NCBI GenBank assembly: GCA_030697685.1
Contig: JAUYPF010000030.1
Location: 1 to 45,220 of the forward strand
Source of the DNA: a bacterium
GTDB lineage: Archaea; Nanobdellota; Nanobdellia; SCGC-AAA011-G17; GW2011-AR17
DNA: 45,220 bases
Direction: 5' to 3'
Part shown: one piece after another, positions 1 through 45,220 of the stretch
Numbering within the stretch: the stretch's first letter is position 1
Layout of the letters: the number at the start of each line of letters is the position of its first letter
Notes under the pieces: model-generated
Database searches by the model: none
Seen by the model: only the letters and a program-made list of their open reading frames with translations
Told to the model about the DNA's origin: nothing
Program-made: the position numbers and the translations under genes

Positions 1-317
1 CAATTGTCTCTTAAAAAAACAGGATTTAACAAAGGATGATCTTCTAAATGGTCTACATCAACCACTCTATCATCAAAGAAAAACATGCTTTTATCATCAA
101 CTTTTCCCTGCACTTGAGGGCAACCATAAAACCAATTGTCCCACACATCAGTATTTCCGAATGCTCTTTGTCGTCCTAAACCACTATTCCCAAAAGGGAC
201 TTCAGTAGCGTTATATACAGACTCCAAAGCACAGATTAATGCTTGATTCTTATCTGGAACATAATGCATTGAACCAGTTAAAGGCTGACTTCTATGAATT
301 GCGATTGTTTTTACCAT
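1..317 (-). CDS. DGR target-like protein, 5' part of a second copy (runs off the left edge)
   Basis: Reading leftward from an ATG at 317-315, the first 105 residues are visible and the frame is still open at base 1. An AAAGGAG Shine-Dalgarno lies a few bases upstream and a TATA box at 364-373, so the start is well placed. The last 36 residues match the same region of the target gene at the right end of the window (2 amino-acid changes). The 3' part, where a variable repeat would lie, is outside the window. I do not recognise the N-terminal domain. It begins MVKTIAIHRSQPLTG, has no signal peptide or membrane segment and is probably cytoplasmic. This copy supplies the N terminus missing from the right-hand copy; together they suggest a protein of about 274 residues. 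Confidence 0.8.
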   Translation of the reverse strand, partial: MVKTIAIHRSQPLTGSMHYVPDKNQALICALESVYNATEVPFGNSGLGRQRAFGNTDVWDNWFYGCPQVQGKVDDKSMFFFDDRVVDVDHLEDHPLLNPVFLRDN

Positions 318-43204: not shown

Positions 43205-44299
43205 CTACAGCTTATTAAAATTTGTGTATTTTAGTAAACGGTTTACTTCCTTAGAGGAGACTTCTTGAGGATAGAATTCTTCTAAACTTTTTGCTTTTTT
43301 TAGTCTCCAACGTATTGTATTTGCATTAGAGATATGAGCAAAAGTACCCTCTAAAGAATTGTAAATATCGTCAAAGGTTATTTTTCCTTTTTCATATGCT
43401 TGTTTTTGTTCTAGGATTCTTCGATCTATCTTCCTTATATTTACTTTTTTTAATATTCTATGATAGTAAAATATTCTAAAGCCTAAAAAGCTTACTCCTT
43501 CTTCTAGAGAGATTATTTTGGATTTTCCTTTATGTAAAGTTATCTTTAGATTTTCCTCTAGAAATTGATTTAGAGTTATTTTTACTTGTTCTAATCTCTT
43601 TTTATCCTTGTCTAAGATGATAAAATCATCCACGTAACGAATATAATATTCTTCTTTTAGATTATGCTTCACAAAGATATCTAACTCATGTAAGTATACA
43701 TTTGCAAAAAATTGGGAGGTTAGATTTCCTAGGGGCATACCCTTTCCCTTTTGTTTACCTTGATAATTACCTATAATTATTTTGATTATGCTGAGTACTT
43801 TTTCATCTTTGATTTTCTGTTTTAGGATATTGATCAAAATCTCTTGGTCTACTGTTTCAAAGTATTGTTTGATGTCTGCTTTTAGAACGAAACACTCTAA
43901 AATATTATTTTTTGAAACTTTTCTTTTAAAAGTGTTAAACCTTTCTAATGCTTTTACTGTTCCTTTTCCTTTTCTATTTGCATAAGAATCATAGATAAAT
44001 ATATTTTCATATATAGGCTCTAGGATGTTACAAATGGCATGATGCACAACTCTATCACGAAATGCAGATTTAGAGATTTTTCTTGTTTTTGGATCGTGTA
44101 TAATAAATGTTTCTAATGGCTTTGGGCGATATACTTGAAGCAAAAGCTCTGCTTGTAACTGAAGCAGATTCTGCTTAAGATTTTTCTCAAATTCTTTCAC
44201 ATAAGGCTTTTGCGTTTTTCCCTTTCTTGCTTTTTGGAATGCAAGAAGAAGATTTTCGTAGGAACAAAGCTCATGCCAGAGATTTTTGTATGTTTTCAT
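43205..44299 (-). CDS. Diversity-generating retroelement reverse transcriptase
   Basis: A 364-residue RT with no maturase, endonuclease or integrase domain. Motifs: RDRVVHHAICNILEP (RT1/2), LKADIKQYFETVD with the first catalytic Asp (D142), KGMPLGNLTSQFFANVYL (residues 186-203), YYIRYVDDFIILDKD with YVDD at 222-225, then the GVSFLGFRIF thumb-side motif. The GNLTSQ sequence follows the DGR rule (hydrophobic-G-xxx-S-Q) and not the QGxxxSP of group II intron RTs. Length is typical for DGRs. The ATG overlaps the TGA of the template-repeat frame, and AGGA precedes it. No Avd-like accessory gene is adjacent. Confidence 0.96.
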   Translation of the reverse strand: MKTYKNLWHELCSYENLLLAFQKARKGKTQKPYVKEFEKNLKQNLLQLQAELLLQVYRPKPLETFIIHDPKTRKISKSAFRDRVVHHAICNILEPIYENIFIYDSYANRKGKGTVKALERFNTFKRKVSKNNILECFVLKADIKQYFETVDQEILINILKQKIKDEKVLSIIKIIIGNYQGKQKGKGMPLGNLTSQFFANVYLHELDIFVKHNLKEEYYIRYVDDFIILDKDKKRLEQVKITLNQFLEENLKITLHKGKSKIISLEEGVSFLGFRIFYYHRILKKVNIRKIDRRILEQKQAYEKGKITFDDIYNSLEGTFAHISNANTIRWRLKKAKSLEEFYPQEVSSKEVNRLLKYTNFNKL

Positions 44300-44487
44300 G
44301 TTCTTTTTCCTAGCAAAGCTGAGGCTATTCCTAACAGACGCGCGTTATTGTTGTTTAGATTGTTGTTGCCATTCAGGTTGTTATTGTTATTGAACACAGA
44401 CAAACGCCCCTCTGCTTTAGTCTTCTTGCTCAGAGTGCACTGCTGCTTCAGACCTTCGCTTTCGCTACCAGTTGTTGCAGCTGTATT
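44296..44487 (-). pseudogene. Start-less frame carrying the template repeat (target-gene 3' relic)
   Basis: One frame is open for 63 codons across the TR and has no usable start: ...AATTGSESEGLKQQC, TLSKKTKAEGRLSVF, five Asn, L-N-G, three Asn, L, four Asn, ARLLGIASALLGKRT, stop. The GRLSVF and ARLLG ends equal those of the target protein, and the frame is the same as in the target. Its TGA stop overlaps the RT ATG (ATGA). It looks like the copied 3' end of a former target gene that has become the non-coding template. Confidence 0.75.
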
Positions 44488-44531
44488 TCATACCTTCTTT
44501 TAGGCGTAGCAAAAAGACTTGTAGCCTCAGC
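44318..44531. repeat. 10-bp inverted repeat flanking the template repeat region
   Basis: GCTGAGGCTA at 44318-44327 and TAGCCTCAGC at 44522-44531 are exact reverse complements and enclose the TR and about 110 nt on its upstream side. In an RNA they could close a large stem around the TR. The rest of 44411-44604 holds no gene. Confidence 0.5.
44330..44410 (-). repeat. DGR template repeat (TR)
   Basis: An 81-bp sequence 30 bp upstream of the RT, matching the VR at 44744-44824 without gaps. On the coding strand it has an adenine-free 18-nt 5' end, 48 nt holding 13 AAC/AAT codons, and a 15-nt GC-rich 3' end. All 14 differences from the VR are at TR adenines (11 A to G, 3 A to T); none of the C, G or T positions differ. 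This is the signature of adenine mutagenesis by DGR reverse transcription. Confidence 0.97.
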
Positions 44532-44604
44532 CAACTTTCTTTACGCACAGAGAAAGATGCTAAGACAAGAATAAGAATAAGAAATAAAAATATAAGTTTT
44601 TGGG

Positions 44605-45220
44605 TTATTCAGAAGGTATGCCAGATAAACATTCTTCAAGGCATGCTTCAGGAACAAATTTTTTCAAATATGCTTCAAGCATGACTTTTTTTGCAGCGCC
44701 TTCGGCGCTGGAGCTCGCTACGCTCGCCACACCACGACGTACCCCTAACAGACGCGCGACATCGCTGCCTAGATAGTCGCTGCCATCCAGGTCGCTATTG
44801 CTAATGAACACAGACAAACGCCCCATCGCTTTTTCTTGTTCTGCATCTTGTAGAGCACAATAAAGCCTAATGTTTTTTCCATGCTTGGTTTCATGTGCTT
44901 GGAGATAGGATTTTATTTCTGCTTCTGAGAGACCTAAGAAAGCTTTTAGATAAGCATGATCTTTTGCTGCATATAAGTCCAAAGAGGTATTTATTTTTCC
45001 CAAATCTGTATGCGCAAGAGCACGAACAGCAGAACCTTCAACACGAGATAATTCTACTAAAGCAGAAAAATACTCTTGAGAAACAGGTAAAGAACCATTT
45101 TTCATTTCAGACCAATTGTCTCTTAAAAAACCAGGATTTAACAAAGGATGATCTTCCAAATGATCTACATCAACCACTCTATCATCAAAGAAAATCATGC
45201 TTTTATCATCAACTTTTCCC
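44605..45220 (-). CDS. DGR target protein with internal variable repeat (5' end beyond the window)
   Basis: The frame is open to the right edge; 204 residues are visible. Compared with the copy at 1-317, about 70 N-terminal residues are missing, so the full protein is about 274 residues. The variable region (about 44746-44824) reads GRLSVF-ISNSD-L-D-G-SDY-L-GSDV-ARLLG, each dash-separated group replacing Asn codons of the TR. A 45-residue tail follows (GVRRGVASVASSSAEGAAKK to CLSGIPSE), so the VR is not at the extreme C terminus. The part before it is helical and charged, without signal peptide. I do not recognise the scaffold; a C-type-lectin-like display fold, common in DGR targets, is possible but not shown. 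Confidence 0.93.
   Translation of the reverse strand, partial: GKVDDKSMIFFDDRVVDVDHLEDHPLLNPGFLRDNWSEMKNGSLPVSQEYFSALVELSRVEGSAVRALAHTDLGKINTSLDLYAAKDHAYLKAFLGLSEAEIKSYLQAHETKHGKNIRLYCALQDAEQEKAMGRLSVFISNSDLDGSDYLGSDVARLLGVRRGVASVASSSAEGAAKKVMLEAYLKKFVPEACLEECLSGIPSE
44694..44710. other. GC-rich hairpin 3' of the variable repeat
   Basis: CAGCGCC (44694-44700) pairs with GGCGCTG (44704-44710), a perfect 7-bp stem with a 3-nt loop, 33 nt downstream of the VR in the direction of the target gene. DGRs often carry a hairpin or cruciform just after the VR that promotes retrohoming. Confidence 0.65.
44744..44824 (-). repeat. DGR variable repeat (VR) in the target gene
   Basis: An 81-bp match to the TR at 44330-44410. 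Twelve of 13 Asn codons of the TR are changed here, giving I, S, (N kept), S, D, D, S, D, Y, G, S, D and V. Two codons carry two changes each (AAC to GGC, AAC to GTC). The shared 15 bp at the 3' end (CGCGCGTCTGTTAGG) would serve as the site that primes cDNA synthesis. Confidence 0.97.
45113..45220 (-). repeat. Segment repeated at the left end of the window (1-108)
   Basis: Bases 45113-45220 align with bases 1-108 without gaps at 104 of 108 positions. The four differences give two amino-acid changes (Gly/Val and Ile/Phe) and two silent ones. The repeat is part of the target gene coding sequence. Confidence 0.9.

Follow-up and report, generated by a model that had tools for sequence, protein, structure and literature searches.

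One chromosomal diversity-generating retroelement (DGR), with one reverse transcriptase (RT) and one template repeat (TR), almost certainly serves, by mutagenic retrohoming, three or more paralogous genes for AvpA-like C-type lectins. The window, meaning the whole stretch of DNA that was analysed, is the entire contig C37 (45220 nt) of a 1.07 Mb genome in 65 contigs that is 92% complete. The element lies at the right end of the contig, and as judged from its sequence it was confirmed as a genuine chromosomal DGR of known archaeal type in a DPANN-range archaeon.

Table 1. Features of the DGR and of target copies in the window (contig C37)
Feature	Position	Strand	Details
DGR RT	43205..44299	-	364 aa, intact, no simple-repeat tract; PF00078 8e-25; 8ub7 E 7e-46; LGNLTSQ, YVDD
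IMH*-like TR end, TTAGGAAT	44327..44334	-	read from sequence; compare published TGGAAT
TR	44330..44410	-	81-nt core; repeat match reaches 44418
C-terminal 204 aa of target gene (AvpA-like C-type lectin family)	44605..45220	-	start beyond contig end; 5ioo profile E 2.9e-45
Hairpin CAGCGCC-GAA-GGCGCTG	44694..44710	-	within target ORF, 30 nt after IMH; compare published GRA-loop hairpins
IMH-like VR end, TTAGGGGT	44741..44748	-	same in all three VRs; compare published TGGGGT
Variable repeat (VR)	44744..44824	-	14 differences from TR, each at a TR adenine
N-terminal part of another target copy	3..317	-	95% identical to C47 target residues 1-105; broken by left contig end

On the minus strand the gene order is target, TR, RT, with the TR intergenic and the variable repeat (VR) within coding sequence. 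A repeat search of the window returned the pair as 44330-44418 / 44744-44832, with 81% identity and a spacing of 414. The 81-nt TR core contains 28 adenines, of which the mutable core holds 27, and with 28/81 positions being A, the chance that all 14 TR/VR differences fall on A is 2e-8. A preliminary description made from the sequence alone had proposed a DGR with an 81-bp TR, an 81-bp VR in the neighbouring gene, 14 differing sites confined to adenines, 27 adenines in the mutable core and the order target-TR-RT on one strand. The VR coordinates and the counts proved exact when re-counted over the core, and the DGR identity was borne out by the DGR-like RT with LGNLTSQ, adenine-only differences in three VRs, the IMH and IMH*, the GAA-loop hairpin and the AvpA-type target. 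The suggested DPANN placement also fits, the nearest named records being Woesearchaeota and Nanoarchaeota. The element had been called complete, but the target ORF runs past the end of the contig, and the span given for it (44296-45220) holds the TR, the VR and the target but leaves most of the RT outside.

DGR hallmarks had likewise been ascribed to the RT and were recovered by structure and motif comparison. Against all solved structures, 8ub7 was the best match (160 bits), and group II-type RTs came next at 83 bits. The 8ub7 entry, labelled just 'Reverse transcriptase', is presumably the DGR RT of the Bordetella phage. Motif 4 follows the DGR pattern [IVL]GxxxSQ, ending in SQ rather than SP, and the catalytic box is YVDD. 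A genome search gave one RT match; at 92% completeness, the assembly may lack another RT or TR. For Avd, no minus-strand ORF of at least 40 aa lies between TR and target, and PF05635 matched nothing, its controls being silent too. Some DGRs do without Avd.

The candidate cis elements of the window match, by their sequence, those of nanoarchaeal DGRs, for which a TGGGGT/TGGAAT pair was described along with trinucleotide loops of the GRA type inside the target gene (PMC4372165). The hairpin is nearly unchanged in all three targets and was called from its exact inverted repeat and its position only. Folding energy of the wider hairpin region was no better than that of shuffled sequence, and as shuffles fold equally well it was dropped as evidence. 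In the proposed mechanism, the RT would copy a TR transcript and make errors at template adenines only; in target genes, the resulting cDNA would then take the place of the VR, upstream of the IMH/hairpin site.

The rewriting had been thought to concern one protein, but when the TR was searched against the genome, two additional VRs turned up on other contigs (C36:6413-6500 and C47:8426-8514). Each differs from the TR at 13 positions, adenines only, so that summed over the three VRs (14+13+13) 40/40 differences lie at TR adenines. Not all 40 are independent, because some substitutions are common to two or three VRs, e.g. core A37G, A55G and A56G. At least one VR varies at 23/28 TR adenine positions, and 0/53 non-adenine positions differ in any VR or between targets. 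The target paralogs are 69-76% identical, and the flanks upstream of their VRs (395-450 aligned bases) differ by 10-21% between target genes. At this flank rate, the chance of unchanged non-A positions is 4e-6 for the window VR (VR1) and C36, 5e-3 for VR1 and C47, and 2e-5 for C36 and C47. Overwriting therefore came after gene divergence, and the simplest reading of these sequences is that all three VRs would have been overwritten from the window TR.

Further target copies, or the same ones, may be represented by the N-terminal part at the left end of the window and by a similar N-terminal part at the right end of C55 (C55:36936-37034), which is also broken by its contig end. There are therefore at least three targets, perhaps four or five. 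Contigs end inside target copies as if the assembly broke at repeated targets, and C55 may join the right end of C37. The C47 target adjoins a diphthine-synthase-like gene (the name was read from its sequence), and in a second species of the genus, G021, a target of the same subfamily lies beside such a gene as well (L094 1-1216; compare L019 8628-9374 on G000:C47). Thus, by gene neighbourhood, the remote target locus seems to be conserved and vertically inherited within the genus. Two more AvpA-like proteins are encoded in the same genome, at C48:31476-31652 (L021) and C28:2314-2589 (L020). The C48 gene keeps a GGGGTACGTCGTCGTG stretch resembling the IMH region, and its VR does not match the window TR. 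The TR search had no match at either of the two, and they were not counted as further targets of this TR; possibly they are targets of another or lost template.

The same evidence bears on other explanations of the three VRs. If the DGR were a fossil, once active, its VRs would now be passively inherited via gene duplication, and the paralogy of the target copies together with the substitutions common to several VRs would be in line with this. However, the RT is intact with its catalytic YVDD, and the non-A VR positions are unchanged despite the divergence of the flanks; a fossil is considered unlikely. Still less probable is that the window TR serves its neighbour only and that the C36 and C47 VRs stem from other DGRs, lost or unassembled. 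The incomplete and fragmented assembly would leave room for such elements, and at least two DGR RTs are often present in related genomes, but all three VRs match the window TR at every non-adenine position, and the C36 VR fits it slightly better (85% identity) than the neighbouring VR does (81%). Practically negligible is an RT from a group II intron, retron or defence system beside an unrelated repeat. The closest NCBIfam RT model is indeed a group II RT (163 bits), but this is under its cut-off of 300, and no group II, Drt or retron model scored the RT above its threshold. A DGR RT is by far its best solved relative, motif 4 has SQ and not SP, the adenine-only pattern recurs in three VRs, so that differences unrelated to adenine, which this explanation would require, are excluded, and an IMH and a hairpin are present.

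Service of several targets by one RT and TR is thus the preferred reading, under which the window DGR would still be active and homing in trans presumably happens at present. In 2015 it was left undecided whether RT-less nanoarchaeal VRs are fossils or remotely diversified (PMC4372165); for the RT-less VRs of the window genome, the sequence pattern favours remote diversification rather than fossils.

The full-length target copy on C47 has 274 aa and no Pfam match. A single-sequence search found AvpA (5ioo) as its closest solved relative with an E of 2e-4, and a profile of nine sequences matched 5ioo over almost the full length with an E of 2.9e-45, so that a scaffold not recognised in the preliminary description can be recognised as AvpA. 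AvpA was also rank 1 in a fold search with an AlphaFold model of the target, which is of low confidence (pLDDT 48) and gives weak support. AvpA is the archaeal DGR variable protein in which a C-type lectin fold was seen; its VR is internal, and the hairpin lies in the DNA of the extension that follows (PMC5006420). Targets of the window type have the same layout, and they would be ligand binders in contact with host cells or viruses.

The 40 changes in the three VRs comprise 27 A to G and 13 A to T, with no A to C. Taking the window VR together with ten relatives, 146 adenine changes were counted, 88 to G, 55 to T and 3 to C, shared ancestry reducing the number of independent events. For DGRs, all three wrong nucleotides are described to be used roughly equally (PMC8144416), whereas A to C is almost absent here (3/146). 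Selection on the protein may contribute to this skew.

With the nanoarchaeal DUSEL4 DGRs and AvpA (PMC4372165, PMC5006420), the window element shares the AvpA-type target, whose VR is internal and whose C-terminus is extended, the GGGGT/GGAAT IMH pair, the GRA-loop hairpin inside the target gene, an AAY-rich TR and RT-less VRs elsewhere in the genome. The DUSEL4 IMH is TGGGGT and that of the window TTAGGGGT; the window target is only distantly similar to AvpA by single-sequence search, and unlike in the DUSEL4 DGRs, three target paralogs correspond to a single RT and TR. Common with the DGR of Bordetella phage BPP-1 are the RT type, the order target-TR-RT on one strand, adenine mutagenesis, and an IMH and hairpin downstream of the VR. 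In contrast to BPP-1, the window element lies on an archaeal chromosome with no Avd found nearby, its VR is not at the C-terminus, and its target belongs to a different C-type lectin subclass. Similar DGR RTs were found in 43/103 genomes of the order, and DGR RTs in 109/378 genomes of the class; DGRs are highly represented in Woesearchaeota (PMC8421398). In G018, of the same genus, the order target-TR-RT is the same, with an own VR and TR.

Relatives of the window RT point to a further level of control. In this class, slipped-strand phase variation probably turns DGR hypermutation on and off, with the length of a tract in the RT gene deciding whether a whole RT is made; having no tract, the window RT would stay in frame permanently. 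Many RT genes have such a tract (poly-G, poly-C, GA or CT), in most cases in the loop ahead of motif 4, and its length would set the frame. In a search of the order's genomes, the RTs of several relatives were found as two halves, broken near residue 183, where a run of 9-10 G lies just before motif 4. A pattern search found a G-run within 30 nt of the PLGN codons in 7/103 genomes of the order and 16/378 of the class, and a reversed-pattern control gave no match. Further RTs are interrupted at this loop by repeats of GA, CT or poly-C. Poly-G also occurs at a second site, around residue 237, and in G054 around residue 130. The window RT has no G/C run of 7 or more inside or near its gene.

Across the class, approximately 39/147 RT genes carry a simple repeat of one of these four kinds, for the most part at a single loop, the 147 sampled genes including split genes among the matches listed. 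The tract-bearing loci of relatives are L047, L055, L056, L099-L105, L121, L139-L148, L155-L165, L167, L171, L199, L202, L207, L222, L231, L241 and L248. Among the matches listed, 30/39 tract-bearing RTs are split and 9/39 in frame (2/9 with the tract near the 3' end), 5/108 RTs free of a repeat are split, and 30/35 split RTs break at the tract, most halves containing no stop. Frame offsets of 0, +1 and +2 are all present. Two paralogous RTs of G315 share a tract at an identical position, one being out of frame with G8 and the other in frame with G9. The out-of-frame elements of G098, G039, G321, G173, G196, G262 and G202 and one out-of-frame element of G315 retain TR/VR pairs, roughly 70-96 nt long and differing at adenines only, as found by a scan that reports only stretches free of other mismatches. 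Since adenine-only pairs are retained, these out-of-frame elements were recently active. Runs of at least 9 G occur 55 times in the 103 genomes of the order, 10 of them in RT genes by position, and RT genes make up about 0.1% of the sequence or less. On a tree, a minimum of 12 changes of the tract trait fall on well-supported branches. As a rule CGAA(C) comes after the poly-G, and it does so in two codon frames and two places in the gene (e.g. L099, L121, L144 and L147). At L115 (end of G025:C22), the contig ends in poly-G followed by AGATCGGAAGAGCGTC, presumably residual sequencing adapter.

Other causes of the split RTs were weighed against phase variation. Programmed frameshifting was rejected as a general cause, as all three offsets occur and the repeats are of four kinds. 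Plain pseudogenes were rejected as well, given the concentration of splits at the tract, the mostly stop-free halves and several clean TR/VR pairs among the matches listed. Transcriptional slippage at the RT tracts could act, and assembly can miscount homopolymer length, but an assembly error hardly creates homopolymers.

Homopolymer or dinucleotide tracts are typical of bacterial phase-variable genes. The relatives of the window RT, though not the window RT itself, have in common with these the poly-G, poly-C and dinucleotide tracts within an ORF and the occurrence of all three frames; unlike in the bacterial genes, it is the RT of the hypermutator that would be switched, and this in archaea. 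A partial search of the literature returned no account of DGR RTs under phase variation, and an on/off repeat switch of a DGR RT seems not to have been described.

The window shows clearly that a single archaeal DGR can match three or more targets lying apart from one another, and thereby bears on the question posed in 2015. Its relatives suggest a second, faster genetic switch acting on the mutator in archaea, which, if true, would explain how a hypermutation system can be kept without constantly mutating the receptors.
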